The notes under the pieces are model-generated. The model was not told the origin of the DNA, made no database searches, and worked only from the letters and a program-made list of their open reading frames with translations. From Streptomyces roseicoloratus (GTDB taxonomy: Bacteria > Actinomycetota > Actinomycetes > Streptomycetales > Streptomycetaceae), in contig NZ_SDOY01000144.1 of the NCBI RefSeq assembly GCF_004117935.1, positions 124,001-188,000 of the forward strand: a stretch of 64,000 nucleotides of DNA, in the 5' to 3' direction. This document shows positions 24,556 through 40,778 of this stretch, in pieces. How positions within the stretch are numbered: position 1 is the stretch's first letter; every line of letters starts with the position of its first letter. Position numbers and translations under genes: made by a program.

Positions 24556-26070
24556 TCAGTGCATGCGGGCGTCGGTGTCGAACAGGGCCCGTTCATGGGG
24601 GTGCAGGACGTGCTGGACGATGAAGCTCCTGCCGGCGACCTTCCACAGGCCGCGCCCGCGGTTGAGGTGGGCGATGGCTTCGGTCTCGACGCTGGTCAGG
24701 CCCAGCAGGGAGGCAGCGGCGTTGAGTTGGTCGGATTCCTGCCGGTAGATGATGCGGGTGGAGCAGTCGGCCAGTAGCCCTTCCGCGAGGGCGCGGCCCT
24801 GAGAGCCGGCATCGCCGGCGGTCAACAGGTCGGAAAGCCGGTGGATCACCATCAGGTTGGCGATGCCGAGGCCGCGGCTCAGCTTCCACTGCGCCTGCAT
24901 GCGCTGGAGAAGCCCCGGGTGACGCATGAGACGCCACGCCTCGTCGTAGACGATCCACCGCCTGCCGCCGTGCGGGTCGGTGAGGGCGGATTCCATCCAG
25001 GCGGAGGCGCAGGTCATGGCGAGGACCAGGGCGGTGTCGTCGCCGGATCCGCCGAGCCGGGACAGGTCGATGGTGAGCATCGGACTGTTCGGGTCGAAGA
25101 CGACGGTGGACGGGGCGTCGAACATGCCGGCCAGATCGCCGTGGACGAGGCGGCGCATGGCGTGAGCGAGGTCGCGGGCTGCTTCCCCGAGACGCCCGGA
25201 CATGGTTCCCGCCACGTGGTCGAGCTGGTCGGGATTGTTGAGGGCCGCGGCGATGTCGCCGAGTAGCGGGGATCGTCCGATGGCGGCGGCTCGTGTCACG
25301 ACGGTGTCGAGGGCGACGTCCAGCGCGGTGTGCTCCATCGGCAGCAGGTCCCGCCCCAGGACCGTGCGTGCCAGCGAACCGAGCAGGAGCAGGCGGCGCT
25401 TACGGATCTCGCCCGCCCAGTCCGTTTCCGGGACGGAGGTCGGTCTGGGCGCGGCGTCGAGGGGGTTGAGCCTACCGGGCAGGCCAGGACCGAGGGCGAC
25501 GGACGTGCCGCCGAGCGCGGAGGCGACGGCCGTCCACTCCCCCTTGGGATCACAAGGGACGTAGATCCGGTAGCCGAAGGCGACCGACCGGAGCGCGAAG
25601 CTCTTCGCCAGAGCGCTCTTGCCCTGGCCGATCACGCCGGCGAGAAGAATGTTCGGGTTGGTGAAGCCTTCGACGCGGCCGTAGAGGGCGAACGGGTCGA
25701 ACACGAAGGAGGCTTCGGCATGGACATCGCGGCCGATGTAGATGCCCTCGGCGCCGAGACCGCCCTCGGCGAGGAACGGATACGCCCCCGAGGCGGTGGC
25801 GGTGGTCATGCGGTGCGCCGGCAGCTTCAGCCTCCCGCCGCGGGCGGAGGCGAGGCCCGGACGCCCGCTCGGCGGATAGAGCGGAGACGGCATCGTCTGC
25901 TCGGCGGGCTCGGTACCGGCAGGGTGGGAGCTCGCTTCGGCGCGGGCCTTGGCGGCGGCCTCGGCGAGCTGCCGACGTGCCGCCCTTCGGCTGGCGCGGT
26001 CGGCGGTGTGGGGCGTGAACAGTGGGGAAGCGGAGGCGCGACGGGCTCGGCGTGCGGGCCGGTGGTTCAT
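24556..26070 (-). CDS. VirB4-like conjugation ATPase
   Basis: A 504-residue P-loop ATPase of the FtsK/HerA-VirB4 type. Walker A is GVIGQGKSALAK at about 143-154; Walker B is RWIVYDEAW at about 368-376; a later YRQESDQ region follows. The N-terminus is basic and disordered. VirB4 proteins power assembly of type IV secretion channels; here the usual N-terminal VirB4 region seems to be supplied by the separate SCO6880-type protein encoded just upstream (26650-28122). It is in the same unit as the coupling protein and TrbL-like protein. Confidence 0.88.
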   Translation of the reverse strand: MNHRPARRARRASASPLFTPHTADRASRRAARRQLAEAAAKARAEASSHPAGTEPAEQTMPSPLYPPSGRPGLASARGGRLKLPAHRMTTATASGAYPFLAEGGLGAEGIYIGRDVHAEASFVFDPFALYGRVEGFTNPNILLAGVIGQGKSALAKSFALRSVAFGYRIYVPCDPKGEWTAVASALGGTSVALGPGLPGRLNPLDAAPRPTSVPETDWAGEIRKRRLLLLGSLARTVLGRDLLPMEHTALDVALDTVVTRAAAIGRSPLLGDIAAALNNPDQLDHVAGTMSGRLGEAARDLAHAMRRLVHGDLAGMFDAPSTVVFDPNSPMLTIDLSRLGGSGDDTALVLAMTCASAWMESALTDPHGGRRWIVYDEAWRLMRHPGLLQRMQAQWKLSRGLGIANLMVIHRLSDLLTAGDAGSQGRALAEGLLADCSTRIIYRQESDQLNAAASLLGLTSVETEAIAHLNRGRGLWKVAGRSFIVQHVLHPHERALFDTDARMH

Positions 26071-26098
26071 CGGGGGCCCTCTCTCCGGCGTGCTCCGC

Positions 26099-26578
26099 TC
26101 ACCGGGCGCACGCGGTGGCGTGCGCGGGGAGCGGGCTGCTGAGGTCGGTTGGGGTGGTCTTGCGGCGCACGCTGTGCCCGGCGGCGAGGTGGCGCTGGCA
26201 GATGGTCAGCACCGGAGGGCCTTCCGTCAGACGGTCGGGGTGACACTCCGACGCGTCGGTGCGGTCGCGGGAGACGGTGGGCAGGAGGTGGAAGGCGGAG
26301 TGGACTTCGGCGATGGCCTGCCACAGCCGGGTACGCGCCGCGGCGAGGTGACGGCCGGCTGCCGGGTGCGGGGGACGGACAGCATCGGACAGCTGGTCGA
26401 GCAACTGGTGCACCTGGGTGAGGTGGGCGTGCAGCACGTCGAGGTGCGCGCGGTCCACCGCCGTCCTGTGCTCGGCCGCCTGCACGGTCCGAGCGAGAAC
26501 ACGGGTGTGATGGCGGATGCCCGCACTGGCGGCCCGGAGGTAGGGGTGCGCGTCGTCGGGACGCGAGCTTGTGCGCAA
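26099..26578 (-). CDS. DUF6238 family protein
   Basis: A 159-residue protein. A helical first half (YLRAASAGIRHHTRVLARTV ... LHAHLTQVHQLLDQL) is followed by the conserved segment ECHPDRLTEGPPVLTICQRH with Cys/His residues, then a tail containing VRRKTTP. This matches what I recall of DUF6238, a family seen in Streptomyces conjugative clusters. It probably starts at the TTG at 26578. The role is unknown; it sits between two conjugation genes. Confidence 0.65.
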   Translation of the reverse strand: MRTSSRPDDAHPYLRAASAGIRHHTRVLARTVQAAEHRTAVDRAHLDVLHAHLTQVHQLLDQLSDAVRPPHPAAGRHLAAARTRLWQAIAEVHSAFHLLPTVSRDRTDASECHPDRLTEGPPVLTICQRHLAAGHSVRRKTTPTDLSSPLPAHATACAR

Positions 26579-26649
26579 AAGAGGGATTCCTTCCTGTCAC
26601 CGGGCGGGGGACAGGGCGAGGGAACAGCGACGGTTCGAGGCCGCCGCTG

Positions 26650-28122
26650 TCAGAGGGCGGTGCGGGCGAGGGGCAGGGCACCGAGGGCGAAGGCGTCAGG
26701 CTGTTGGTAGAGGAGTCGGCGCAGGTCGACTCCGGCGGTGACGGCGGCGGTCTCGATCTGGGCGCAGGCCGCGTCGAGGAGGGCGTCTGTCTCGGCGGTG
26801 ACGGTGAGCAGTCCGGTCAGAGCGACATCGGCGTGTCCGGCGATCAGTTGCCGCTCGCGCTGCTTGACGTCGGCGTACTCGACGGAGTCGGCCTCGGAGT
26901 CGACCTGCCCGCGCCGTGAACGCTCGCTGGCGTCGGCGATGATCGCGGCCTTCTTCCGCTGGACGTCGCGCAGCGCGGACTCGAGCCCCTGCGGCACGTA
27001 TATAAGGGACAGGGTCCGCCGCACTCCGGCCGTGAACATGAGCCCGTGCAGGAACCCGGCGCCGGTTTCGGTCCTCGGCCAGTCCTCGACCCAGTAGGTG
27101 GCGTGACGGGCGGAGTCGGTGGCGATCCGGTCGTACTCCTCGACCTGAACGACGGGGCCGGCGGCTGCGGCGTCCGCCTCGGCGCACCCTGTCTCGGACC
27201 ACTGCTGCAGGGTTCCGAGGGCCTTGGGGTCGTAGGCGGTACGGATGACACCGGCGATCTCCCGGGTGCTGAGCCAGCCGGTCACTGTCAGGCCCGCGCT
27301 GCGGGCGGCCTGGGCGATCGAGGAGGTGGTCTGCTCCAGGACGGTGAAAGCGCCGTTCAGACCGCCGCCGGCCTGAGAGACGAGGCGCTTGGCGGCCTTG
27401 AGGTCCAGGGAGATGGCGAGGTACGCCTCGTGCGGGGCGGCGGTCGGGCCGGCGGAAGCGACGAGCTCGGCGTACACCTGCCCGGCGACCGGGGCGTCGG
27501 CCTGCCCGTATTGCGCCCAGTGACGGGCGAGGGTGTCGCCCGAGTCCGGCACGGTGCGCTCCAGGACCTGAACGGTGGCGACATGACCGGTGCGGGCGAC
27601 GCCGGCGAGCGCGCGGCCCCATGCGGAGACGTTGTGGTTCTGCGTGGCAGGGTCGAGCAGGGCGAAGGCGCGGCTGGAGACCCGCGCGATGGCTGTGAGG
27701 GTCTGGCCGTGGGGGTCATGGACGGCGGCGGCGCCGTTGGCGGAGTCACCGGGGGTTACGACCTTGAGCGAAGCGTCGGTGCCCGGCAGGTGCAGGACGC
27801 CGTCCTGCCGGGGGCGGGAGACAGGCCGGGCGAGCCAGAGCGTCTGTCCCGTACGTCGGCGGTGGGCGTAGCGGGCGACGACCGGGGCCCAGTCGATCAG
27901 CGACCGGCCGTCGCGGCGGACCACGACCAGGGCGGCGACCGCGGCCCACAGCGGAACCAGGGCGATGGCGCCGACCAGCCCGGTGGAGAGCACGGTTGCG
28001 AGGAGGAGCGCCAGTGCCCCCGAGACGAGGACGAGCTGGGGAAGGGACAGGCCGAGCAGAATGCCTCGGCGGGACCGGTGAGGGAATTTGACCGTGACCG
28101 GGGCGACGGAGAGATCAGACAA
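26650..28122 (-). CDS. SCO6880-family conjugation protein
   Basis: A 490-residue protein. Two membrane spans near residues 27-67 are followed by a large soluble domain. The order (PrgI-like membrane hairpin, then a region like the N-terminal half of VirB4/TraC) and segments such as RGILLGLSLPQLVLVSGALA and GLMFTAGVRRTLSLIYVPQG match the actinobacterial SCO6880 family. No P-loop is present. It probably couples the VirB4-like ATPase encoded immediately downstream to the membrane channel. Confidence 0.85.
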   Translation of the reverse strand: MSDLSVAPVTVKFPHRSRRGILLGLSLPQLVLVSGALALLLATVLSTGLVGAIALVPLWAAVAALVVVRRDGRSLIDWAPVVARYAHRRRTGQTLWLARPVSRPRQDGVLHLPGTDASLKVVTPGDSANGAAAVHDPHGQTLTAIARVSSRAFALLDPATQNHNVSAWGRALAGVARTGHVATVQVLERTVPDSGDTLARHWAQYGQADAPVAGQVYAELVASAGPTAAPHEAYLAISLDLKAAKRLVSQAGGGLNGAFTVLEQTTSSIAQAARSAGLTVTGWLSTREIAGVIRTAYDPKALGTLQQWSETGCAEADAAAAGPVVQVEEYDRIATDSARHATYWVEDWPRTETGAGFLHGLMFTAGVRRTLSLIYVPQGLESALRDVQRKKAAIIADASERSRRGQVDSEADSVEYADVKQRERQLIAGHADVALTGLLTVTAETDALLDAACAQIETAAVTAGVDLRRLLYQQPDAFALGALPLARTAL

Positions 28123-28209
28123 GTGGGCGGTCCAGACGTGCGCGGGGTGGTCGCCCCGGGGCGGGAGGTGTGGGATGCCTCCCGCCCCGGGGTTAAGCGG
28201 ATCAGAAGC

Positions 28210-29574
28210 TCAGAGGCCGGCCGGAGGGGGCGGGGAGGCCGACCATCCGGCCCCGGCCGCCGAGTCAGACGTGGACGGGGCGCCCTGTGGCGGCGGGCTG
28301 GTCGACGGCGGCGTGGACTGCCACCCGCCACCCTGGCCGGTTGCGGCGCCGGTCCCGGAGCCACTCGGTCCAGTGCTGCCGCCGAACTGGCCGCTGGTGT
28401 CGTCGGAGACGCTGGTCGGCGGGGGCTGTGCCGCCTTCTCCAGGCTGGACAGCGCGGCGTCCCCACCGGGAGAGACGCCCGATCCGGCGCTCTGCGAACT
28501 CTCCTGACCACCGGTCGGGTTGGAGGCGATGTCGCCGGGGAATCCGCCCCCACCAGGGACTGAATCGGGCCCCTGTGGAGCAGCACCTGCGCCGGCCGCG
28601 GCACCACCGGTTCCGGCGGTGGCCGCCACTTGGGCGGCCTTACGCGTGGCCTTCTCCGTGTGCTGCTTGGCGAGTTGGGCGCCAGCGCCGCCTGCGCGGT
28701 GGAGCGATTCTCCGTCCGATCCCTCTGCCGCCCAGTGGACGAACTTGAAGGTCGCGTAGGGGCACAACAGGATCAAGACCATGATGACGATGCCGGCCAT
28801 GACGTCGGCGAGCGCGGCCAGGCCGTCGTCCGCTTCGGTCTTACCCATTGCTGCGATACCGAGGACGAACACGATCGTCATCAAGAGCTTGGAGACCACC
28901 AGGGTGGCGGTGGCTTCGATCCACCCGCGCCGCCAGCGGCGGGCCACCTCCCAGCCGCCTCCGGCGCCCGCGAACACAGCCAGCGTGACCATGAGCAGAA
29001 TGCCCACCTTGCGGGTCATCATGATGCACCAGTACAGGAGCGCACCCATCGCGGCGCCGAGGCCGACGAGAGCGGTGACGAGCCAGCCGAGCCCGGAAAG
29101 GGCAGCGATCTGCCCCACCTTGACGATCCGCCGGACCGCGGACTCGATATCCAGATGCGCGGCCTTGAACAACCCGTCGGAGAGGGCGTCGACAACCTCG
29201 ATGGCCACGGTGGTGAACGCGATGGCGCAGAACGAGAACAGCACGCCGCTGGCGGTTCCCGTGAACGCTTGGGTGAGGGCTTGGCCGTCTCGGCGGACCG
29301 CGGCCCGGATGAGTTGGGCGCAGAACGTGGCGACCAGCAGGACGAGCCCGATGGGGAGGAGTAGTTCGTAGTTGTCGACGAACCACCCGGCACGAAGGTC
29401 CACGTTGGTCGTGGCGTTGACGGCCTTGGCGGCCAGGTCGGCTGCGGTGGCGGCGAGTTCGCCGGCGGACTTCGCCATCCAGTCGCCGATCGCCTTGCCC
29501 GGGTCGGACGCGAAGTCGACCGCATCGCCGACCGCGCAGACGGTGCCCGCGAGGGGAAGGTCGCAAAAGCCCAT
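28210..29574 (-). CDS. TrbL/VirB6-like membrane channel protein
   Basis: A 454-residue polytopic protein: about six hydrophobic spans between residues 70 and 280, then a long Gly/Ser/Pro-rich disordered tail. The spacing of spans and the GWFVDNYELLLPIGLVLL beginning match the TrbL/VirB6-type conjugation proteins of actinobacteria (SCO6881-like). ATG at 29574 follows AAAGGAGG. In type IV systems this protein forms part of the inner-membrane pore. Confidence 0.85.
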   Translation of the reverse strand: MGFCDLPLAGTVCAVGDAVDFASDPGKAIGDWMAKSAGELAATAADLAAKAVNATTNVDLRAGWFVDNYELLLPIGLVLLVATFCAQLIRAAVRRDGQALTQAFTGTASGVLFSFCAIAFTTVAIEVVDALSDGLFKAAHLDIESAVRRIVKVGQIAALSGLGWLVTALVGLGAAMGALLYWCIMMTRKVGILLMVTLAVFAGAGGGWEVARRWRRGWIEATATLVVSKLLMTIVFVLGIAAMGKTEADDGLAALADVMAGIVIMVLILLCPYATFKFVHWAAEGSDGESLHRAGGAGAQLAKQHTEKATRKAAQVAATAGTGGAAAGAGAAPQGPDSVPGGGGFPGDIASNPTGGQESSQSAGSGVSPGGDAALSSLEKAAQPPPTSVSDDTSGQFGGSTGPSGSGTGAATGQGGGWQSTPPSTSPPPQGAPSTSDSAAGAGWSASPPPPAGL

Positions 29575-29605
29575 GAAGGTGGTCCCTCCTTTCGTTCAGG
29601 GTGGG

Positions 29606-30295
29606 TCAGGGCGCGACGCGCGGGGCGATGGCCACCAGCGAGCAGTCGTGGGACGGCCGGCACTGCACGGCGAGGGTTACGGAGCGGTCCTCCGCCCCAC
29701 CGCCGCCCTTGACCCATGCGATCCGCTGCTTGCCGGTGACAGTTACGGCGTAGATGTACGCCTTGGTGATCGCGGCCGGATCCTCTGCGAGGGCCTGCTT
29801 GAACGCCGCCGGATAGTGGCCGTCGGCCATGGCCGCGCTGGCGTGCTGCTGTTGGTCGGCCATACGCGACCACAGGGTCGGGTCCGGCACCTGCGCGGAG
29901 ACCGAGAGCCAGTCGCTGTACTGCGACTCCTTCGTCATCCAGAGCTCCATGCCGGCGATCTGCTCATCGCGGGTGGTGTCGCGGGTGTCGTAGGACCAGA
30001 GCATGGCCGCGGCCCGCTTGGCGAAGGCGACGGGATCGGCGATCCGTGGTGGTGCAGGTACCGAACCCGTACTGGCCTGCGGATTCCCGCTGCTGGCCGG
30101 TGTCGTCGTGCTGCTCGGTGATGATGAGGCGGGGCTGCCGGCGGACTCGGGGGGACGGTCGCCTTGACCGGTCAGCGTGGCGGCCAGGCCGGAGACGGCG
30201 ATCAGGGTGATGAGTACGGCGGCGATCAGCAGGGCCCTGCGGGTTGACGACCAGCCCGTGCCGTAGCCCGATCGGGAGAAGGATGATTTCAGCAT
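29606..30295 (-). CDS. Single-span conjugation protein, VirB8/TcpC-like in build
   Basis: A 229-residue protein: a short cytosolic N-terminus, one membrane span (ALLIAAVLITLIAVSGLAA, about residues 23-41), a Ser/Thr/Pro-rich linker, and a C-terminal extracytoplasmic alpha+beta domain (YIYAVTVTGKQRIAWVKG, VTLAVQCRPSHDC). This build is that of VirB8/TcpC-like assembly factors, but sequence identity to them is not evident. ATG overlaps the DUF6112 stop as TGATG. Confidence 0.7.
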   Translation of the reverse strand: MLKSSFSRSGYGTGWSSTRRALLIAAVLITLIAVSGLAATLTGQGDRPPESAGSPASSSPSSTTTPASSGNPQASTGSVPAPPRIADPVAFAKRAAAMLWSYDTRDTTRDEQIAGMELWMTKESQYSDWLSVSAQVPDPTLWSRMADQQQHASAAMADGHYPAAFKQALAEDPAAITKAYIYAVTVTGKQRIAWVKGGGGAEDRSVTLAVQCRPSHDCSLVAIAPRVAP

Positions 30296-30604
30296 CAGTG
30301 GACCTGCGACCCTAGGGCGCTGAAGAAGGTGACGATGCCGTTGGCAGCGCCCAGGCCGAGGGCGGCGCCCGCCGCCACGAGCGCACCCTTCTTGCCGTTG
30401 GCCTCGGCCTGGTGGCCGCCGGTGTGGTGGCCCCAGGCCCACACGCCGAGCGAGACGGCGAGCGCGCCGACCACGGCGATGAGGCCGAACATGTTGATGC
30501 TGGAGACGACGTTCTTCAGGACGGACAGGCCGGGCAGTCCGCCGCCCTTGGGGGGTGATGCCGGGGTCGTAGGCGAGGTGGAGGACGCGGTCAGCGAACG
30601 GCAT
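30295..30604 (-). CDS. DUF6112 pilin-like protein, frameshifted
   Basis: The C-terminal part is a clear DUF6112 protein with two membrane spans ([20 protein letters not shown] and ALVAAGAALGLGAANGIV), the size and topology of VirB2/TrbC pilin-like subunits. The expected N-terminus, MPFADRVLHLAYDPGITP, is in another frame starting at ATG 30604. The two frames meet at a six-base G run (30550-30555; C6 on the coding strand): removing one base joins them into ITPKGGGLPGLSVLKNVV. As sequenced, only a 65-residue product from ATG 30492 is intact. Sequence error, real lesion and +1 ribosomal slippage are all possible. Confidence 0.75.
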
Positions 30605-30733: not shown

Positions 30734-31852
30734 TCAGAGGACGCGACGCACTGCGAGGACGTCCCAGTCGGCGAGAGGCGTGATCCGTACGGGCCTGCCC
30801 GTCTTCGGCGCCTCGATCACGAGGCCCTGACCGATCGCCATGCCGACGTGCTCGGGCCGAGCGGCGGTGCCCCGGGAGAAGATCAGGTCACCGGGCTTCA
30901 GGCTCTTCGCCGAGACAGGCTTACCCTCGTTGACCTGCGTGTACGTGGTGCGGGTGAGCTTGATTCCGGCCTTGGCGTACGCCCGCTGCATCAGCGAGCT
31001 GCAGTCGCATCGGCCCATCGGGTCGGGGCCGTGCGGGGCCGCGCACGAGCCGCCCCACTGGTACATCGTGCCGAGCTGGTGCATCGCCCAGACGATCGCC
31101 GTGCGGGCCCGCGGGTCGGTGCCCTTCGGGATCGTGTAGCCCTTCGGGACGGCACCTTCGGGGATCGGCCCGAACGAAGAGCCGTCCGCCGTACTGCAGC
31201 CCGAGAGGGTGACCTTGTCGTCGGTGCCCTTGCCGGGGCGGTCGCGGCCGGCGCGGGGGAAGGTTGCGGCGACGGCCTTCTGCAGCGCGGTCGCGAGCGG
31301 CTCCCACTGGGCATAGGCGTCCGGGTAGCCAGAGCGCTGTACGACCTGCGCGGCCTGCGTCACCGTCATCTGCTGCCAGCCGTTCACCTTCAGCAGTGCC
31401 TTGTAGAACTGCTCGGAGGCGTAGACCGGGTCGCGGATCTGCTCGGCGGTGCCCCAGCCCTGGCTGGGCCGCTGCTGGAACAGCCCCAGCGAGTCGCGGT
31501 CACCGTAGGCGAGGTTCCGCAGCCGGGACTCCTGCATGGCGGTGGCGAGGGCGATGATCTGCGCGCGTTTGGGCACGTCGAGGCTGATGCCGGTGGCGAT
31601 GATGGTCTGTGCGTGGGGGATCTGCTCGCCAGTTAGGTCGAGGCCCTCGATGCGGACGTCGGTGGCGTCCGCGCCGTCGAGGACGCGGGTCACCTGATCG
31701 GCGACCTTATCCGTGTCGAGGTCGGGAAGGCACTGGCCGATCGAGCCGGTGCTCTGGACGGCATCGCTGGAGGCGGCCATCGCCATGGCCGTGCCGCCGA
31801 GGAGGAGAGGGGAGAGGAAGACGACGCCGATGCCGGCGGCGACGACCTTCAT
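30734..31852 (-). CDS. NlpC/P60 cell-wall hydrolase with lytic-transglycosylase-like part
   Basis: A 372-residue secreted or membrane-anchored enzyme. A signal/anchor segment (residues 5-27) precedes a helical region with ATAMQESRLRNLAYGDRDS and LGLFQQRPSQGWG, typical of lysozyme-like modules in conjugation proteins. The C-terminal NlpC/P60 domain has the catalytic Cys in RCDCSSLMQ (about 283), His in PEHVGMA (about 334) and the VIEAPKTG strand. It would cut peptidoglycan locally for channel assembly, the VirB1 role. First well-supported gene after the leftward promoter. Confidence 0.9.
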   Translation of the reverse strand: MKVVAAGIGVVFLSPLLLGGTAMAMAASSDAVQSTGSIGQCLPDLDTDKVADQVTRVLDGADATDVRIEGLDLTGEQIPHAQTIIATGISLDVPKRAQIIALATAMQESRLRNLAYGDRDSLGLFQQRPSQGWGTAEQIRDPVYASEQFYKALLKVNGWQQMTVTQAAQVVQRSGYPDAYAQWEPLATALQKAVAATFPRAGRDRPGKGTDDKVTLSGCSTADGSSFGPIPEGAVPKGYTIPKGTDPRARTAIVWAMHQLGTMYQWGGSCAAPHGPDPMGRCDCSSLMQRAYAKAGIKLTRTTYTQVNEGKPVSAKSLKPGDLIFSRGTAARPEHVGMAIGQGLVIEAPKTGRPVRITPLADWDVLAVRRVL

Positions 31853-32061
31853 CCGGAGCGGTTCTCTCGTCCGAGTCGGGTTGCGGGCGGGGGTGGGTAA
31901 CGAGACGTCACAGAACGGTCCTTGAGGGTGCGAGGTCCGGCCTGCCGTGCACGCGTGATGACGGTCGGAAGGGACGCGGCGGCCGGAGGCGGGTGATCAG
32001 GAGAGACCGGGCGTGCGGGCGAGTTGCCGCTCGGACCGCGCGCCGGAATCGGTTCAGGCAT
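31849..32061 (-). CDS. Possible small leader protein
   Basis: A 70-residue frame (MPEPIPARGPSGNSPARPVS...) from ATG 32061, just after the predicted leftward start of transcription (about 32128). Its stop overlaps the NlpC/P60 ATG as ATGA, as in other coupled pairs here. There is no good ribosome-binding site and the product is Pro/Arg-rich, so it may be only a leader. Confidence 0.3.
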   Translation of the reverse strand: MPEPIPARGPSGNSPARPVSPDHPPPAAASLPTVITRARQAGPRTLKDRSVTSRYPPPPATRLGRENRSG

Positions 32062-32135
32062 GCCGGAGCAGGGAGAGCTCCAGGAGGCATGAGGGTGGGA
32101 TGAGCCATCGGCGGTGTGCGCCGGGCGGTTCCAAA

Positions 32136-32164
32136 ACAGTAGGGCCGAAATCCCGGTCGGCCAA
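32136..32164 (-). promoter_or_regulatory. Predicted leftward promoter of the conjugation unit
   Basis: Minus strand: TTGGCC (32164-32159), spacer of 17 bp, then TACTGT (32141-32136). The -10 fits TAnnnT; the spacer starts GACCGGG, shared with the rightward promoter. Start of transcription would be near 32128. Confidence 0.6.
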
Positions 32165-32212
32165 AAAGTCGGCAACAAGGGGTCGGAACGCGACCCCTCT
32201 TCCATCCCCTTC

Positions 32213-32241
32213 TTGGTCGACCGGCGTTCTGCACCTAGAGT
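32213..32241 (+). promoter_or_regulatory. Predicted rightward promoter
   Basis: Plus strand: TTGGTC (32213-32218), spacer of 17 bp, then TAGAGT (32236-32241), mirror image of the leftward promoter. Start of transcription would be near 32248, giving a leader of about 120 bases before the methyltransferase start. Confidence 0.6.
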
Positions 32242-32368
32242 TTTGGAACTCTCCTCGCTCCTCCTGCTTCCGTGCCCCTGGGCTTCCGCATGCCCAACTC
32301 CGGCCCGCAGGACTTCTTATGAGCGAGCTGTCTCCACCCATTCGCCGCACTCGAACCGGGGTACCCCT

Positions 32369-33124
32369 TTGTCCTTTTCTCTCCACCAGGGCGACGCTCT
32401 CAGCGTCCTCGCCGGCCTGCCGGACGACTGCGTCGATTCCGTCATCACCGACCCGCCGTACAACAGCGGAGGCCGGACCGCGAAGGAGCGCACGAGCCGC
32501 AGCGCGAAGCAGAAGTACACGTCCGCCGACGCCATGCACACCCTCGCCGACTTCACCGGCGAGAACATGGACCAGCGCAGCTACGGCTTCTGGCTCACGC
32601 AGACCATGACCGAGGCCCACCGGCTCACGAAGGACGGCGGGACCGCGCTGCTGTTCACCGACTGGCGTCAGCTCCCTGTCACGACGGATGCGATCCAGGC
32701 GGCCGGCTGGCTGTGGCGCGGAGTGCTGGCCTGGCACAAGCCGCAGGCCAGGCCCCAGAAGGGCCGTTTCACGCAGAACTGTGAGTTCATCGTGTGGGCC
32801 TCGAAGGGAGCGATCGACGGCTCTCGCAACCCGGTCTACCTGCCGGGCCTGTACAGCGCGTCGCAGCCGTCCGGAAAGGCCCGGCAGCACATCACGCAGA
32901 AGCCCGTCGAGGTGATGCGGGAGCTGGTCAAGATCGCCCCGCCTGGTGGCACGGTCCTCGACTTCTGTGCCGGATCCGGTTCCACGGGCGTGGCCGCACT
33001 GCTGGAGGATCGTGCATTCATCGGTGTTGAGAAGACCCCGCACTACGCCGGGATCGCCGCCGACCGTCTGACCGAGACCATCCGCCAGACCCTCACTAAG
33101 GACGACGTCGGCCTGACTGCCTGA
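32369..33124 (+). CDS. Amino-group DNA methyltransferase (N6-adenine or N4-cytosine)
   Basis: A 251-residue enzyme. The catalytic motif TDPPYNSG is near residue 27 and the AdoMet motif LDFCAGSGSTG near residue 197, the order of the beta class. The target region lies between. TTG at 32369 gives the usual family start (SFSLHQGDALSVL) but has no good ribosome-binding site. An ATG at 32319 with AGGA upstream opens a different frame that would need a shift to join. It is the first gene of the rightward unit. No partner endonuclease is nearby, so self-protection against host restriction or gene regulation is likely. Confidence 0.88.
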   Translation: MSFSLHQGDALSVLAGLPDDCVDSVITDPPYNSGGRTAKERTSRSAKQKYTSADAMHTLADFTGENMDQRSYGFWLTQTMTEAHRLTKDGGTALLFTDWRQLPVTTDAIQAAGWLWRGVLAWHKPQARPQKGRFTQNCEFIVWASKGAIDGSRNPVYLPGLYSASQPSGKARQHITQKPVEVMRELVKIAPPGGTVLDFCAGSGSTGVAALLEDRAFIGVEKTPHYAGIAADRLTETIRQTLTKDDVGLTA

Positions 33125-33172: not shown

Positions 33173-33811
33173 ATGCCCGAAACCGCGTACCCCGAAGAGG
33201 CTGGGGAAAGGGAACCGATACGCGTTCCGGATTCCCACCTCGAAGGGATCGAGGCCAGCGTCCGGAAACTGATGGAGCAGTCGGCGCAGCAGGCCCGGCA
33301 GCTCGACGACCTCGCCTCCGCACCCATGCCTTCGCCATCGCCGTTCGCTGCCTTCGGTATGCCCGGACCAGGCGGGTCGGCACCGGCTGTCTTGCCGCAG
33401 CCCCGGCCGATCCTGGAGCTGGAGGGCGAGTCGTACGAGGACGAGCTCGACGCGCTGTCGGACTGGGTCGACGACTTCCTCCTTCCCGTCTACGGAGCCG
33501 AGGTCACCACGGCGGCGCCGTGGTGCCTGCAGTGGCAGGAGCACAACGACGTCGTCGCCTGGCTCCACGCGCTCTGGCTCGCCTACCAGCAGCACAAGGA
33601 CCCGGAGACCGGGCTGTCCGGCATGCTGGTGTGGCACCGGGACTTCCTCGCTCACACCATCGCCGCGATCCGGGGACCGGGCGGCCCGCTGTCGGCCTGC
33701 ATGACCTCCCCGGACCGACCCTCGCACCGTCTCCTGCCCGGCCCGAAGCCCTCGGCCCGTACTGCGGACAAGTCGGACGAGCCCGGCGGTGACCTGGACC
33801 TGGCGGCGTGA
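33173..33811 (+). CDS. DUF4913 family protein
   Basis: A 212-residue protein. The first 90 residues are helical and then Pro-rich. The conserved domain (LSDWVDDFLLPVYGAEVTTA, WCLQWQEHNDVVAWLHALW, WHRDFLAHTIAAIRGPGGPL) matches DUF4913, a family found in actinobacterial plasmids and integrative elements. Function unknown. ATG is followed closely by the coupled RelE-like gene (GTGA overlap). Confidence 0.8.
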   Translation: MPETAYPEEAGEREPIRVPDSHLEGIEASVRKLMEQSAQQARQLDDLASAPMPSPSPFAAFGMPGPGGSAPAVLPQPRPILELEGESYEDELDALSDWVDDFLLPVYGAEVTTAAPWCLQWQEHNDVVAWLHALWLAYQQHKDPETGLSGMLVWHRDFLAHTIAAIRGPGGPLSACMTSPDRPSHRLLPGPKPSARTADKSDEPGGDLDLAA

Positions 33812-34296
33812 TGGCCGGGCCCGAGCACCGTCCGGTCTTCGGCCTGTCCTTCGATCCGCGGGCCCTGACCGACCTCCTCCAGGCTCCCGGAGACATCCGT
33901 GACCTCGCCCTCGCTCAGCTGCAAGACGTGGTCAACGCCCAGCTGTTCGGTACGAAGCTGACCGGCGACCTGTCGGGCTACCGCAAGCTCCTCGTCGACT
34001 CCCGCAAGGAGTGGAGGGTTGTCTACGCCGTGCGGCCGGCCCCATCGACCGCCCAGCACTCCAGCGAGGTCCACGTCGTCGCCGTACGACCACGCGCGCG
34101 CAACGACATCTACGACACCGTCGGGCACCGCCTCGGGATGGCGCGCCGGCCGCTGAGCGCCCGGACCCACGCCTCCCGCTCGCGTTCGCCGCAGCTCTCG
34201 CCCCACGGCCCCGTACCGGTGCCGGCACCGCTGCTCTCCGCGATGCCGGGCCTGCCCCGCCCCGCCCTCGGTGTCACGCAGCACTACGTCCGATGA
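33808..34296 (+). CDS. RelE/ParE-superfamily-like protein
   Basis: A 162-residue product. Residues about 8-110 have the small RelE/ParE fold pattern: FDPRALTDLLQ helix, GDLSGYRKLLVDSRKEWRVV strand pair, and VHVVAVRPRARNDIYDTV. Residues equivalent to the ParE/RelE core (LxGYRKLxVDxxxWRVVY) are present. No antitoxin gene is adjacent; the partner DUF4913 gene overlaps by 4 bp. The last 50 residues are Pro/Arg-rich. Could be a toxin, a tamed relative or a DNA-binding accessory. Confidence 0.65.
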   Translation: MMAGPEHRPVFGLSFDPRALTDLLQAPGDIRDLALAQLQDVVNAQLFGTKLTGDLSGYRKLLVDSRKEWRVVYAVRPAPSTAQHSSEVHVVAVRPRARNDIYDTVGHRLGMARRPLSARTHASRSRSPQLSPHGPVPVPAPLLSAMPGLPRPALGVTQHYVR

Positions 34297-34314
34297 CGAC
34301 AGGAGTCGAACCTC

Positions 34315-35013
34315 ATGCCCCCTGACCTTCCACCGGGAGCGATACGGCGTGCGGTCTCGTCGCTCGACCTGCGTATCGAAGCGGCCACCGGCCACGACGT
34401 CGACACGCTCTGGGCCCACCGCGACCGAGGCATCCTTGACGAGCGGCAAACCGCTCTCGTCGACCGGCATCGCGCGCTGGTCAAGGCCGAGACCGCCGTG
34501 AGGTTCCACCGCACGCTGCTGCATCGGCTCTCCAGCGGCGAGTTCCCCGTCGATGCCGCTCTGCTGCAGCGCATCGGCCGTACGGTCGGCCAGCTGGAAG
34601 AAGCGGCCGACGAGCGCGCCGTCGTCGCGCGGCTCGTACTCGCCGACCTGGAGCCAATCGAGAGCTCCGCCCGCACTGCACAGCAGGCCGCCGGTGAACC
34701 GATGACGGCCGCCGACTACGCAGCGCTGCTGGCCATCGCTGGCGGCGCCAAGCTGTACGAGCACCTCCTGACGGGCCGGATGTCGGTGGCCACAGCCTCT
34801 GGTACCCGGATCCCGTACGCGCGGCTCCAACAGCTCGAATCCCTGGGCCTTGTCTCCCGAGTCACGAGCCACCCGGTGCACACCGGACAGCCGGTCGCGC
34901 TCACCGCGCCAGGCCGCGCGGCTCTGGCGAGCAGTCACCGCGGCAGCGCGGCGGCGGTGCCGACCGCACCTCGACCCGGGACGTGGCCGAGCGCGGCGCA
35001 CAGCCGTCGATGA
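34315..35013 (+). CDS. Unknown protein with winged-helix-like C-terminus
   Basis: A 232-residue protein starting at ATG 34315 after AGGAG. The first 130 residues are a helical bundle; the second part (YAALLAIAGGAKLYEHLLTG ... LQQLESLGLVSRVTSHP ... ALTAPGRAAL) has the order of a winged helix. Same build as the leftward protein at 14173-15009, though sequence similarity is weak. Confidence 0.6.
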   Translation: MPPDLPPGAIRRAVSSLDLRIEAATGHDVDTLWAHRDRGILDERQTALVDRHRALVKAETAVRFHRTLLHRLSSGEFPVDAALLQRIGRTVGQLEEAADERAVVARLVLADLEPIESSARTAQQAAGEPMTAADYAALLAIAGGAKLYEHLLTGRMSVATASGTRIPYARLQQLESLGLVSRVTSHPVHTGQPVALTAPGRAALASSHRGSAAAVPTAPRPGTWPSAAHSRR

Positions 35014-35041
35014 CCCTCACCCCGACTCACCGAGAGGCCCG

Positions 35042-35764
35042 ATGCCCCCACCCGAACTGGATCTTCGCCTCGACGGCTTCGAGGCTGCTGACGAACAGAC
35101 CGACGAGGCGTTCTGGCACGCGATCGAGATCGAGCAGGACATGCTCACCGTGCTCGCCGAGCACCACACGGACGAGGACTCGGCCAGCTACTACGTCCTG
35201 CACAACGGAACCACCACCTACGGAATCCCCGGCGAGCCGCAGGTCGTCGCCCTCCACCTGCAGCGCGATCCCGCGGCGCGGACGTTCCGCTTCGAGCACA
35301 CCTACCTTCCTCTGCCGGTCATGGCCCAGTCCTGGCTGATCTCCCGCGGCTGCCCGCCGGACGTTATCCGCCTGCCACCCGGCACAGGTACGGCACCGGC
35401 CGATGAGACGACCCGAGTGCTGGAAGAGCGGCTCATGGGCGACGGCGACCGCTTCGCCCTCCTGACCAGCTACACAAACGACGACCCCGACTCCATGCTC
35501 ACCCTCGTCGTCCTGCGCGCGCTCGACGAACGAGCCCCGTCCCCCTTCCGCGTGCTGCAGGAGGACGTGGACACCGACACCTGGACACACACCCTGCGCG
35601 AAGGGGGCTTCGCCACCGCCGAGGGCGCGCTGCAGTGGTACGAGGAGCGCCTTGCCGGCAGCGCAGGCCCACTGCCGTCCGTGACACCAACGGCCCGCTC
35701 CCTCCAGACGTGGGGAGCCGTACCGCCGACCCCATTCGGCCGCCCGTCGGGCCGCCGCCGTTGA
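35042..35764 (+). CDS. Unknown acidic protein
   Basis: A 240-residue acidic protein from ATG 35042. Alpha/beta with HNGTTTYGIPGEPQVVALHL and RFALLTSYTNDDPDSMLTLV segments; no recognised domain. Last gene before the second promoter module. An outward, minus-strand promoter at 35790-35818 would make antisense RNA to it. Confidence 0.6.
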   Translation: MPPPELDLRLDGFEAADEQTDEAFWHAIEIEQDMLTVLAEHHTDEDSASYYVLHNGTTTYGIPGEPQVVALHLQRDPAARTFRFEHTYLPLPVMAQSWLISRGCPPDVIRLPPGTGTAPADETTRVLEERLMGDGDRFALLTSYTNDDPDSMLTLVVLRALDERAPSPFRVLQEDVDTDTWTHTLREGGFATAEGALQWYEERLAGSAGPLPSVTPTARSLQTWGAVPPTPFGRPSGRRR

Positions 35765-35789
35765 CCCTCCCACGGGCTGGGGCGCGCGA

Positions 35790-35846
35790 AAGATAGCCGA
35801 GGATCGCCGGTTAGCCAAACCGGCGAATCTGCGGACTCTTGTACCG
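35790..35846. promoter_or_regulatory. Palindromic promoter module, copy B
   Basis: Core dyad CGCCGGTT-5 bp-AACCGGCG near 35805-35825. Plus strand: TTAGCC (35811-35816), 17 bp, GACTCT (35834-35839), facing the SH3 gene. Minus strand: TTGGCT (35818-35813), 17 bp, TATCTT (35795-35790). In orientation relative to its operon it is a copy of the module at 21405-21463, with about 38 of 44 bases identical over the core. Confidence 0.6.
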
Positions 35847-35912
35847 GCGCTGAGGGAGGAATCCCCGGGCCGCACCTCTCCCGTCCCATTCCTCCATGGA
35901 GGTTCATTCCGC

Positions 35913-36272
35913 ATGCGCTCCACCCGAATTGCGATAGCCACCGCGATGCTCGGAGCACTCGCTCTGCCGCTGGTGACCGCGGCCTCGGCCACCGGCTCAC
36001 CGGCAGCACTCCGCAGCAACGCGCACGCCGCTCTGCCGTCGATCCGTGACTGCGACCGGCCCGGACCGTGGGTGATCGGCGCCCGCGCCGTCACCATCCG
36101 CTCCAAGGCCACCACCAAATCCACCGCCGTCGGAATCCTCTACCGGGGGCATTCCTTCACCGTCCACAAGAGCAGCGGCGGCTGGCACTACATCACCGAT
36201 CGGACCACCGGCGTGAAGGGATGGGTGTCGGGCACCTACGTCTACCGCGACGTCTACATGTGCCTCGACTGA
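35913..36272 (+). CDS. Secreted SH3-domain protein
   Basis: A 119-residue protein with a Sec signal peptide (MRSTRIAIATAMLGALALPL, cleavage near residues 25-30) and one bacterial SH3 domain (VTIRSKATTKSTAVGILYRG, WHYITDRTTGVKGWVSGTYV). Single Cys residues at both ends of the mature part could form a disulfide. Such domains bind peptidoglycan or proteins outside the cell. It has its own upstream promoter module and may act at the surface during transfer. Confidence 0.8.
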   Translation: MRSTRIAIATAMLGALALPLVTAASATGSPAALRSNAHAALPSIRDCDRPGPWVIGARAVTIRSKATTKSTAVGILYRGHSFTVHKSSGGWHYITDRTTGVKGWVSGTYVYRDVYMCLD

Positions 36273-36313
36273 CCTTCTCTGTCGAATTCCACTCTCATCA
36301 GAAGGGATTGCCC

Positions 36314-36757
36314 GTGTCCGACGGCATAAGGGATGTGGTGGGCCCGATCACCGAGCAGATCGAGCAGCGCTTCGGCCTGAGCATGGACGCGCTCAAGGCC
36401 GCGGTCGAAGCGGCGCCGAACGCCCATCGGGAGGCCACCGTTGTCGTGCGCTGGCATGGGCTGCTCACCGAGTCGCAGGCCGCCTTGGAGCGGGCGGAGG
36501 ACGACCTCCTCGCCGCCTTGGCTACCCAGCCCAGCGAGGTCGACGACCCGACGCTGGTTCTCGCTCACCGCGTTGACTCTGCTGTCACGATCCGTGACGG
36601 CCGAGCCGTGGCCCTCCGGCTCCTGCTGGAGCCGAACGCCGGCGGCCAGCAGGATGTGGAGGCCGAACGCCTGACGCGGCGCGGACCGGCCGTACCGACC
36701 CGCCCGGCGACGCGTTCCGCACCTGTGTCTGTGCCGCCCCGGGTGGTGGTTCGGTGA
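36314..36757 (+). CDS. Unknown helical protein
   Basis: A 147-residue product from GTG 36314 with GAAGGGA upstream. Helical (VVGPITEQIEQRFGLSMDAL, ESQAALERAEDDLLAALATQ) with an Ala/Pro/Arg tail. No domain recognised. The stop overlaps the next start as GTGA. Confidence 0.6.
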   Translation: MSDGIRDVVGPITEQIEQRFGLSMDALKAAVEAAPNAHREATVVVRWHGLLTESQAALERAEDDLLAALATQPSEVDDPTLVLAHRVDSAVTIRDGRAVALRLLLEPNAGGQQDVEAERLTRRGPAVPTRPATRSAPVSVPPRVVVR

Positions 36758-37203
36758 GAGTGCGGACCAAGCCGTGCAGCCAGGATGCCCGTCTCCACGA
36801 GGCTTTCGGTGCCCCAGTCACGGAGCTTTATGAACTGGCCGCCGGCCCGGACCCGTCTGCCGCTCTGACCCGCGCACTGGAGCTGCGCTCCTTCCTCGTC
36901 GTGGTCGAGGAGCAGGTCGCTCGCATTCGGGACCGCGTGCACGAGGCGATGTCGCCAGGGCGGGACATGAACGAACTGTCCGCCGACGAACTTCGGATGG
37001 ACGCCCAGTGGCTCGAAGCGGCACTCGATGCCCGCAGCGGATACCGACGATCACTGGACGTCCTGCTGCGCACAATGCCTCCGTACGTGCAGCAGGACCG
37101 GGCAGTGCGTCGCACCCAGCAGTCCGTCACGGCCACGCTGCCGCCGGCCGTTGCCGCCCGGGCGCCTGTGCGTGTCCGGGCGGCCCACAGCCGCCGACCG
37201 TGA
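36754..37203 (+). CDS. Unknown helical protein
   Basis: A 149-residue product from GTG 36754, coupled on both sides by 4-bp overlaps. It begins with EAFGAPVTELYELA and contains a long helix LVVVEEQVARIRDRVHEAMS. The product at 37200 also has an LYGAPLT motif near its start, so the two look like diverged paralogues. Confidence 0.6.
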   Translation: MRVRTKPCSQDARLHEAFGAPVTELYELAAGPDPSAALTRALELRSFLVVVEEQVARIRDRVHEAMSPGRDMNELSADELRMDAQWLEAALDARSGYRRSLDVLLRTMPPYVQQDRAVRRTQQSVTATLPPAVAARAPVRVRAAHSRRP

Positions 37204-37619
37204 AAGCCCTTCGATCGACCGCTCTCACTTCCGCCGAACTTGCCGTACGGATTGAGGACTTGTACGGCGCCCCGCTCACCACACTCGAGATCCACGCTCA
37301 GACCCAACCCCCGGGCATGCTTGCCGCCCTACTCGGCAGCCGTCACGACCTGGACCTCGCCGAGCGGACCATCACCCTCCACCGTGACCGGCTCCTACAG
37401 CTGGTCCAACCCGAGCGCGGCATCGGCGTCCATGAGGCGTCCCACCTGCTCGACTGCGCTCGCCGCATCGCTGAAGCCGTTGCCGCCCGGGACGCCCAGG
37501 CCAAGACCGCCGCAGCGGTCCTGAACAGCCTGGGACGAGTTCGCGCGTGTGAGCCCCCGGCCGTCTCCGTGGCTCCCGCACCGCCGACGGCGACCGCGAC
37601 CACAGCCCCGAGCCGCTGA
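37200..37619 (+). CDS. Unknown helical protein, paralogue-like of the previous
   Basis: A 139-residue product from GTG 37200 (GTGA overlap). RIEDLYGAPLTTLEIHAQTQ resembles the start of the preceding protein, followed by helices LAERTITLHRDRLLQLVQP and DCARRIAEAVAARDAQAK. The C-terminus is disordered. The set 36314-37619 seems to be one small gene family. Confidence 0.6.
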   Translation: MKALRSTALTSAELAVRIEDLYGAPLTTLEIHAQTQPPGMLAALLGSRHDLDLAERTITLHRDRLLQLVQPERGIGVHEASHLLDCARRIAEAVAARDAQAKTAAAVLNSLGRVRACEPPAVSVAPAPPTATATTAPSR

Positions 37620-37659
37620 GCCGAACGGGCGCGGCTCTTTCACCCCCTGGAGTACTCCC

Positions 37660-38493
37660 TTGGCCACCACCGGTCTGCCCGCGGGCAGCGACGCCGACAT
37701 CGCCCGCGTCACCGAAACCCTCGGCATGATCACCCCGCGATGGAACGTCCGGATCCTGCTGACGCTGGGCTCCGGCCCCCTCCGCTACACCGAGATCTCG
37801 GACAAGATGCCCTGGCTCCTGAGCGGCCAGCTCCACCCCAAGCTCCGGGCCCTCAGCGATGCAGGGCTCGTCGAGCGCACGGAGCACACGTCGCGGCACG
37901 TCACCTACGGTCTCACCGATCGGGGCACGGCGCTGCTGCCGGTGTTGCCCGTGATCGCCTCCTGGGCAGAGGAGTTCCTGGAGAAGCCGGACGAGCCCCT
38001 GTCCGCGATCGAGCACGTCGAGGACAGCCTCACCCTGCTCACCCGTCGGCATGCCGCCGCGATCCTGTGGGTCTTGAAGTCCCGCGGGGAGAGCAGCGCG
38101 CGGGCCGTCGCCAGGATCGTGATGCCCGACGGGTACTGGACGAACATCTACCCGCCCCTGCGGCAACTCGCCGACGACGGGCTCGTGGTGAGCGCCGGCC
38201 CCGGTCAGCCCTATCGGCTGTCGTCATCCGGCGAGGGCCTGGGCCGCGTCTTCGGGGCGCTGTCGGCCTGGTCTGCCGGCCGAACCCTCGACTCCGGCGC
38301 CCAGCACCCGGTCTGGGGGAACGCGGACCGTGCTTCGCGTGCGGCCCCGAAGCACTGGACCAGCCACCGGCCCCGCCTTCCCCAGCCGGCCGTGCCCACC
38401 CGACCGGCACGACCTGCCTATGGCGACCTGTTCTCCCACGCCAACCCGGCTCGCATGCAGACGACGCTCCAGGCAGGAGGTGCGCGTCGATGA
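37660..38493 (+). CDS. Double HxlR-type winged-helix regulator
   Basis: A 277-residue protein from TTG 37660 (GGAG 7 bp upstream). Residues about 10-105 are a complete HxlR domain (ITPRWNVRILLTLGSGPLRY, LSGQLHPKLRALSDAGLVER, YGLTDRGTALL). Residues about 118-205 repeat the fold (LLTRRHAAAILWVLKSRG, YWTNIYPPLRQLADDGLVV, YRLSSSGEGLG). A fused tandem HxlR is unusual because these normally work as dimers of single domains. A basic tail follows. It is a candidate regulator for the repeated promoter modules. ATGA overlap with the next regulator. Confidence 0.8.
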   Translation: MATTGLPAGSDADIARVTETLGMITPRWNVRILLTLGSGPLRYTEISDKMPWLLSGQLHPKLRALSDAGLVERTEHTSRHVTYGLTDRGTALLPVLPVIASWAEEFLEKPDEPLSAIEHVEDSLTLLTRRHAAAILWVLKSRGESSARAVARIVMPDGYWTNIYPPLRQLADDGLVVSAGPGQPYRLSSSGEGLGRVFGALSAWSAGRTLDSGAQHPVWGNADRASRAAPKHWTSHRPRLPQPAVPTRPARPAYGDLFSHANPARMQTTLQAGGARR

Positions 38494-39014
38494 CCTCCAC
38501 CCGCCGCTGCGACGAGTTCGGGCGGGCCTGCTCGGCCCTGGCCTCACCCGAACTGATCCGTCTGGTCACCGAGATAGACGACAACGGCACCATCCCGCCC
38601 CGCGGCCTGGCACGTACCCTCCCGGATCTCTCGCCGCATCAGCTCCGGCACGCCACCGAGCAGGCGCACACTCTCGGCCTTGTCCGTACACGACAGGGCC
38701 TCAGCCTCACCGAGTCCGGTATTCAGCTGGCCGAGGTCTACGACGAAGCCGCCCGCTGGGCTCGTGCCCATGGCTACCCGGGCGTCACCAGCACCTTCGT
38801 GACACGGGTACGAGCCACCCTCCAGCTCCTGGGCAGCGCCGACGTATCCGGGCGGCGCCAGGAACGGAACGGCGAGATCGGTCTCGTGGTCTCGCTGGAG
38901 GCCGCCGAAAGCCTCACCGGTCCGAAGACCGCCGTGGAGTCGTGGATCGCCGGACATGGCGGAGCCGACCTCTCGGCCACCGATGCTCTCGACGGCGCGC
39001 GGCAGGCGGCGTAA
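38490..39014 (+). CDS. Winged-helix regulator-like protein
   Basis: A 174-residue protein from ATG 38490 overlapping the previous stop. DNNGTIPPRGLARTLPDLSP, HQLRHATEQAHTLGLVRTRQ and LSLTESGIQLAEVYD are in the order of a winged helix (helix, recognition helix, wing). The C-terminal part is variable. Coupled to the double-HxlR gene, so they may act together. Confidence 0.7.
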   Translation: MTSTRRCDEFGRACSALASPELIRLVTEIDDNGTIPPRGLARTLPDLSPHQLRHATEQAHTLGLVRTRQGLSLTESGIQLAEVYDEAARWARAHGYPGVTSTFVTRVRATLQLLGSADVSGRRQERNGEIGLVVSLEAAESLTGPKTAVESWIAGHGGADLSATDALDGARQAA

Positions 39015-39145
39015 CCCGGCCACCGGCGGGGTCACCGACCTCGGAACGCATCCCACAGCCGTGCGGCATCCGCCCAGGGCGTGTGCCAGTCCCTCGCCTG
39101 ACCGGCTCTTCTCTTCCTCCATCCCGCTGAGGCGGGCTGCGCTCC

Positions 39146-40399: not shown

Positions 40400-40427
40400 C
40401 CCGACTCGTCCTCGTGGAGTTCCCCCG

Positions 40428-40733
40428 ATGCCCACAACCCGCCTGGCCCCGCGCCGCCGAGAGGCCCGCCTCACGATCGCCGAGCAGTTCCACGCCTTCG
40501 ACGCTCGCAACCCGCACGTCTACCGGGCCCTGGAACGACTCACCCGCGAGCGGCTGACGGCGGGAGCCACACGCATCAGCCTCAAGGCCCACTTCGAAGC
40601 GCTCCGGTGGCGGCTGCCGCACGGAGTACACGGCCTGAACAACAACTTCACGGCCCTCTACGTCAGGCAGCTGATCGCCGAGCACCCCGAGTGGGCCCCC
40701 GTGTTCGAGCTGCGCCGCCGCCGCACCCCCTGA
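40428..40733 (+). CDS. Conserved small protein of mobile elements
   Basis: A 101-residue protein: TIAEQFHAFDARNPHVYRAL, TAGATRISLKAHFEALRWRL, LNNNFTALYVRQLIAEHPEW. The pattern NPHVY ... KAHFE-LRW ... LNNN(F/Y)-Y is common in phage and plasmid proteins of unknown function. Start ATG 40428 follows GGAG. Placed between the transporter and ligase genes. Confidence 0.7.
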   Translation: MPTTRLAPRRREARLTIAEQFHAFDARNPHVYRALERLTRERLTAGATRISLKAHFEALRWRLPHGVHGLNNNFTALYVRQLIAEHPEWAPVFELRRRRTP

Positions 40734-40778
40734 CTTCCCCCTCGTCCACGCCGTCCCCCTCGCACACCTGGAGTCGTC

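Follow-up and report, generated by a model that had tools for sequence, protein, structure and literature searches.

Divergent promoters with shared operators are already known, both from the IncP plasmids and from pLS20. In the central control region of the IncP plasmids (RP4/RK2), divergent operons are governed by the common repressors KorA and KorB. The cooperativity of KorA and KorB has been described (PMC2680271), and on pLS20 of Bacillus subtilis, the regulator Rco of the Pc/Pr promoters contacts two operators with looping (PMC4207663). The mobile elements of Streptomyces chromosomes include the AICEs (pSAM2, SLP1), which use a single FtsK-like protein (PMC3218068). The S. coelicolor island GI-5 contains a 14-gene operon, SCO6871-6884, that includes SCO6878 (VirB4-like), SCO6880, and SCO6881 (PMC2782261), and the island also carries the DNA methylase SCO6885 (PMC1934918). 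How type IV secretion-type conjugative elements are regulated in Streptomyces appears not to have been studied in the literature that we searched, the best-known Streptomyces elements being those with a single FtsK-like protein; we likewise found no promoter study of the GI-5 operon there.

Here, we consider a 64,000-nucleotide stretch of Streptomyces roseicoloratus DNA (referred to below as the window), in which a type IV secretion operon and a methyltransferase-headed operon diverge from a mirror-image promoter region that we refer to as the hub. Similar hubs recur at approximately 80 Streptomyces and Kitasatospora loci, which fall into two clades; the window belongs to subgroup 1A of clade 1. 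As on pLS20, divergent promoters head a Gram-positive conjugation operon, and a long leader precedes its first gene; however, on pLS20 the two promoters overlap and are of unequal strength, and the divergent gene encodes the regulator (PMC4207663), whereas those of the hub are mirror copies 45-48 bp apart, with a methyltransferase as the divergent gene. The IncP plasmids share with our proposal for the hub the common control of divergent operons, but their promoters are not mirror-duplicated and their regulators are known. Like the AICEs, the element studied here belongs to the mobile elements of Streptomyces chromosomes, but in place of a single FtsK-like protein it has VirB4, VirD4/TraG, and NlpC/P60 components. 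GI-5 has the same gene arrangement by annotation (SCO6880 family, VirB4-like SCO6878, adjoining DNA methylase), from which we infer that the SCO6884/SCO6885 region is the same hub. In the literature searched, we found no description of a Streptomyces type IV secretion element whose promoters are mirror-duplicated, with arms that match in a lineage-specific manner. A conserved switch region as sharply defined as this one predicts transcription starts and sites to mutate, and S. coelicolor, by way of SCO6884/SCO6885, is a likely strain for testing them.

Gene blocks diverging from the hub

The genes on either side of the hub are as follows:

15105-16895, minus strand: TraG/VirD4-like coupling protein
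24556-30604, minus strand: transfer genes 29606-30604 and 28210-29574 (unknown membrane-type proteins), SCO6880 family (26650-28122), and VirB4-like ATPase (24556-26070)
30734-31852, minus strand: NlpC/P60 lytic transglycosylase/peptidase, first gene of the type IV secretion operon
32369-33124, plus strand: DNA methyltransferase (beta class), TTG start at 32369, first gene of the right operon
33173-42008, plus strand: right backbone, comprising DUF4913, RelE-like (weak match), 34315 (possible winged helix), SH3, HxlR-type regulator (37549-38493), MFS, and ATP-grasp genes

In this layout, the left and right gene blocks both begin at the hub, as the original prediction held. Its description of the genes so controlled as conjugation and cargo genes needs revision, since four other clade-1 elements (G104, G110, G057, and G093) share the gene order of the right block as far as the ATP-grasp gene, which makes it conserved backbone rather than cargo. 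A VirB4 ATPase and a VirD4/TraG coupling protein, as expected of a type IV secretion-type integrative conjugative element, are present. The methyltransferase protein resembles CcrM and DpnA.

Architecture of the hub

The hub contains the following features:

32128-32249, no strand: the whole mirror-image divergent promoter region, delimited from the sequence, a repeat search, and an inverted-repeat scan
32136-32164, minus strand: predicted leftward promoter of the transfer operon, TTGGCC (32164-32159), 17 bp, TACTGT (32141-32136); expected start ~32129; read from the sequence and kept in ~80 loci
32213-32241, plus strand: predicted rightward promoter of the methyltransferase operon, TTGGTC (32213-32218), 17 bp, TAGAGT (32236-32241); expected start ~32248; read from the sequence and conserved
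32128-32137, minus strand: GTTTTGGAAC (exact match), overlapping the end of the left -10 box, at the expected start; conserved in clade 1 as GTTTTKGAAC
32240-32249, plus strand: GTTTTGGAAC (exact match), overlapping the end of the right -10 box, at the expected start; conserved in clade 1 as GTTTTKGAAC
32178-32198, no strand: central palindrome AGGGGTCG-GAACG-CGACCCCT, candidate operator found in subgroup 1A only (repeat search and 1A conservation), at approximately -59/-60 of both expected starts

A repeat search places the 41-nt arms of the outer dyad at 32128-32168 and 32209-32249, with 76% complementarity (31/41) and a center at 32188.5. When every center was scanned, this dyad was the top-scoring 41-nt ungapped inverted repeat of the window, with no second site at that score, and the best such repeats in 12 random windows (first-order, with the same dinucleotide statistics) scored only 26-28; the nested dyad predicted here is thus present. 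Inside it lies a palindrome with all eight positions paired (32178-32185/32191-32198, centered at 32188). The original prediction counted three nested repeats with one center, which holds for these two, but the third (32173-32188/32200-32215) is centered at 32194, 6 bp off, so that the strictly concentric dyads are two only. Exact occurrences of the decamer GTTTTGGAAC are restricted to the two outer ends of the hub. An Rfam search of the hub and leader gave no significant match, with a single chance miRNA match.

In each arm, reading of the sequence bears out an outward-facing TTGGYC-17 bp-TAnnnT pair. A matrix built from the clade-1 relatives scores the two hub promoters at 45-52 bits and finds no further copy in the window, the next best site (21435) reaching 5.3 bits versus approximately 50. 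These promoter-like pairs are presumably the real promoters of the two operons: divergent operons flank two outward pairs whose spacing and conservation fit a regulated divergent pair of a conjugative element.

Inverted repeats in the intergenic region of a conjugative element, with a deep palindrome in some relatives (L019), might also mark an origin of transfer or of replication, the second possibility raised in the original prediction. We consider this highly improbable. The repeat search found no iterons in the hub, and what is conserved consists of promoter elements, spaced as in a promoter. An origin of transfer in particular is unsupported, because no relaxase was recognized by Pfam, PHROGs, or NCBIfam among the window ORFs tested (one of an unknown type may exist), no relaxase gene adjoins the hub, and the sole TrwC relaxase of the genome sits on another contig (C81).

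Recurrence across Streptomyces and Kitasatospora

Full-length relatives of the NlpC/P60 protein occur in about one-third of 150 Streptomyces genomes (a sample that contains the window's own genome) and also on 80 named contigs. In nearly all Streptomyces and Kitasatospora loci, a methyltransferase lies divergently upstream of the NlpC/P60 gene; the methyltransferases of clade 1, including that of the window, are approximately 83-92% identical with a few outliers near 76%, and those of clade 2 are 47-74% identical. A stringent clade-1 promoter pattern (at most 3 mismatches, a limit because of which more divergent hubs are missed) gave 23 sites in 14 of the 150 genomes, every one at a hub upstream of NlpC/P60, and the reversed pattern gave zero matches in the same genomes. 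The dyad anticipated in other Streptomyces elements recurs as mirror arms at approximately 80 loci, but its central palindrome is confined to subgroup 1A.

The sequence of the arms depends on the lineage. Subgroup 1A promoters read TTGGTCAACCGCCGATCYGSGCCTACTGTTTTTGAAC on the left and TTGGTCGTCGGCGGATTCGCCTCTACAGTTTTTGGAC on the right; loci of the window's type (L039, L042, L095, and L098) have GACCGGCG in both arms, and subgroup 1B has CAACCGGGGATC in both arms. Clade 2 keeps the same design in other letters (left TTGGTGCGGCCGGAATCCCGGTCTACTGT, right TAGGTGCGGCCGGAATTCGCCGTTAACCT), with the promoter pairs TAGGTG-17-TAACCT on the right and TTGGTG-17-TACTGT on the left. Throughout both clades, the spacers between -35 and -10 hold at 17 bp. 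The gap between the two -35 boxes in clade 1 is 45-48 bp, the exceptions being one locus at 50 and one split by an insertion, and it is alike in 1A and 1B even though the 1B center is unrelated in sequence to that of 1A. Of the clade-2 rows, 31 have a gap of 38-42 bp and 6 have one of 50-51 bp, and no row falls at 43-49; the two classes thus differ by one helical turn.

Two variant arrangements were observed. In related S. albidoflavus plasmids (L164, NZ_CP109239.1), the methyltransferase gene follows NlpC/P60 on the same strand, so that the divergent arrangement is not obligatory. At locus L020 (G107), an insertion of approximately 0.9 kb in the intergenic region cuts the leftward -10 box (TACTG/A), so that the transfer promoter of this copy is naturally disrupted.

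Matching of the two arms within lineages

We compared the left arm (21 nt) of each locus with the region on the methyltransferase side, treated as a promoter; near-duplicate rows of one locus from two collections occur, and 79 loci were kept after removal of identical pairs. Clade-2 left arms match their own right arms at 14.8 of 21 positions, compared with 10.7 for shuffles and 10.6-11.2 for clade-1 regions, and the 1A left arms match their own right arms at 13.8 of 21, compared with 10.6 for shuffles and 10.8 for clade-2 regions. For the window's type, the own-arm match is 16.0 of 21, against 10.9 with clade-2 regions. Within 1A, the own-arm match of 13.8 hardly exceeds the match between loci (13.5), and covariation is therefore shown between lineages, not locus by locus. 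Individual loci (L090, with CGGCCGAGGTTCG; L014; L022) have an unusual variant common to both arms. That the two halves change in step suggests one switch for the whole element.

An ordinary pair of constitutive divergent promoters, alike through inverted duplication, with no shared regulator and with mere spacer DNA at the center, would account for arms that fit weak HrdB-type promoters, and for an own-arm similarity in 1A that barely exceeds that between loci. We nevertheless regard a constitutive pair as rather unlikely, given that the conserved sequence includes the 17-bp spacer and varies between lineages in the two arms simultaneously, that the clade-2 gap lengths lie one helical turn apart, and that the 1A center is palindromic with symmetric changes (see below).

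A single genome (G057) holds a 1A hub and a 1B hub, and also a clade-2 hub (recognized by its leader), so that differing arm versions coexist and a shared host regulator would not explain their divergence. Most likely, each element encodes the factor that reads its arms, and this factor would act on both promoters. If so, lineage-specific mirror arms would account for the coexistence of several such elements in one genome without cross-talk.

The central palindrome

The original prediction placed one regulator on the central GGGGTCG/CGACCCC dyad. For the window's subgroup, the conservation data agree with such a site. In most 1A loci, the palindrome lies within approximately 1 bp of the midpoint between the arms, and perfect 8-bp palindrome arms occur in 14 of 42 clade-1 rows versus 0.3 expected. 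Among 23 distinct 1A cores, opposed positions are 80% paired at the true center versus 15-48% with the center slid, and symmetric double changes occur at the fourth pair (TA/GC) and at the sixth (CG/TA). The 1A centers come in two versions, GGTGCCGGATTCCGGCACC and GGGGTCGGATTCCGACCCC; the window keeps the arms of the second, with the core GAACG in place of the common GATTC. Such a palindrome is absent from subgroup 1B and from clade 2, where the mirror arms persist, and the arms, not the center, are therefore the general feature. The central palindrome, a candidate operator, is accordingly an accessory site of one subgroup.

Class-I activators usually bind near 60 bp upstream of a start. The palindrome alone might be the switch, with a dimeric class-I activator at about -60 driving both promoters. 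The -35 boxes are weak, the palindrome center lies approximately 59-60 bp from both expected starts, and most 1A palindromes sit on the midpoint and show symmetric base changes, all of which would fit such an activator. We consider this unlikely as the whole mechanism, because 1B and clade 2 have no palindrome, though the mirror arms and near-constant spacing remain, and because the GAACG core of the window departs from the common GATTC.

Most 1A centers also contain GATTC or GAATC (GANTC, the CcrM target) beside the CcrM-like methyltransferase gene; the center of the window is without GANTC. The methyltransferase could itself be the regulator, methylating hub sites and so setting the state of both promoters: it is the sole sequence-recognizing enzyme always encoded at the hub, it is unusually conserved (84-92% in most clade-1 loci), and it resembles CcrM and DpnA, consistent with the GANTC of most 1A centers. 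However, several loci, the window included, are without GANTC in the center, and no short palindrome is common to both arms of all loci, which makes control by methylation very unlikely.

A proposed joint switch and its candidate regulators

We think it probable that the divergent pair of this integrative/conjugative element consists of two mirror copies of one regulated promoter under joint control. RNA polymerase would start outward from both arms, transcribing the type IV secretion operon to the left and the methyltransferase-headed operon to the right. A DNA-binding protein encoded by the element, presumably one and the same for both arms, would recognize the same sequence in each (the region of the -35 box and spacer) and, in subgroup 1A, would probably also bind the palindrome midway. 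A single bound complex would silence or activate the two promoters jointly, because the sites are inverted copies at a fixed, helically phased distance; two inverted, phased sites would favor contact between two bound molecules, as in pLS20 (PMC4207663). Since the bases between -35 and -10 are the conserved ones, we favor repression by occlusion as the sign of control. Points against this reading are the right -35 box of subgroup 1B, which is not TTGG-like although the adjoining spacer is conserved, a combination that simple promoters do not account for; the absence of the palindrome outside 1A; the small own-arm advantage within 1A; and the codirectional genes of the S. albidoflavus plasmids. 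The predicted joint control of both promoters is thus in line with their conservation, the fixed 17-bp spacers, the near-constant arm distance, and the matching arms, but its placement of the regulator's site at the center does not extend beyond 1A.

Two proteins encoded in the right block are candidates for the regulator. The HxlR-type protein (37549-38493) is a plausible one and is kept in four clade-1 elements. The protein at 34315-35013 is a candidate by virtue of a predicted C-terminal winged helix; a structural search with it gave no significant match (best E 0.046, coiled coils). Neither protein was found in the one clade-2 element examined (G091).

The leader of the transfer transcript

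The transfer transcript has a leader of approximately 280 nt that is itself conserved. Known Streptomyces attenuation leaders, in which likewise a short ORF and then hairpins stand ahead of an operon, serve amino-acid genes, whereas the conserved leaders described here precede a transfer operon (PMC8079986). In clade 1, the order is GGAGG, a five-codon mini-ORF, the hairpin CGAG-CGGCAA-CTCG, a GC-rich stem, and ORF2 (MTSRYPPLP...). The corresponding features of the window are as follows:

32054-32071, minus strand: five-codon mini-ORF CTG CTC CGG CAT GCC TGA, degenerate in the window; translation presumed
32020-32033, minus strand: conserved hairpin CGAG-CGGCAA-CTCG in the leader of the transfer transcript
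31849-31911, minus strand: leader ORF2 VTSRYPPPPATRLGRENRSG, its stop overlapping the NlpC/P60 start (ATGA); overlap kept in nearly all clade-1 loci

The mini-ORF of the clade-1 relatives reads NTG-P/S-R/W-H-T-stop, the stop being TAG, TGA, or TAA. ORF2 encodes approximately 20 amino acids (MTSRYPPLP...), and we read its overlap with the NlpC/P60 start as translational coupling. The fold of the window's leader is no more stable than shuffles (z -0.2), and RNA structure is therefore claimed for clade 2 only. There, the z-score is -4.3 (one member), a downstream stem is kept in all or nearly all sequences, and the ORF2 SD is paired in 23 of 23.

The clade-2 leader consists of AGGAG, ATG or GTG, three codons, and then the nearly invariant AGATTACGAGCGCGGCTGGCTGCCGC. 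At approximately 230-380 bp before NlpC/P60, the clade-2 leaders (L062-L099, L030-L038) show a nearly invariant AGATTACGAGCGCGGCTKGCTGCCGC preceded by AGGAG and a start codon. A single copy of the motif is present in each of 22 of the 150 genomes, every time near an NlpC/P60 gene of this type. Its peptide holds AGA-TTA in frame, TTA being the bldA codon; in 21,113 codons of neighboring genes, TTA occurs 0 times and AGA twice. Even the synonymous positions of the AGA-TTA motif hardly vary, which is compatible with retention as codons or as RNA. A separate reading of RLR in the clade-2 leader as a macrolide-stalling motif was dropped, as several loci have RLQ or RLP.

We tentatively suggest a switch with two layers, in which mirror promoters with element-specific arms would define an immunity group for each element, even for several in one genome, and a structured leader, with translation of a tiny ORF, would gate the transfer operon. 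Transfer in the sister clade would then depend on the developmental bldA tRNA, because the tiny ORF carries the invariant AGA-TTA pair. We found no precedent for a link between bldA, a leader peptide, and conjugation in the literature searched.

Additional gene content

Several neighboring genes deserve mention in their own right. At 37549-42008, the backbone genes for the HxlR regulator, the MFS exporter, and the ATP-grasp protein (L-amino-acid-ligase-like) may form an element-borne small-molecule or signal system. A PAPS-reductase-like protein (PHROG 424; 13102-13962) adjoins the coupling protein and is 68% identical in a clade-2 element. Just beyond the conserved block, AAA ATPase and Cap4-type nuclease genes (44790-48660) form a possible anti-phage system. 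Past the methyltransferase of the clade-2 element G091 (L126, 7634-14900) lie genes for a protein kinase, an SNF2 helicase, and an MmeI-like methyltransferase, which resemble defense cargo.
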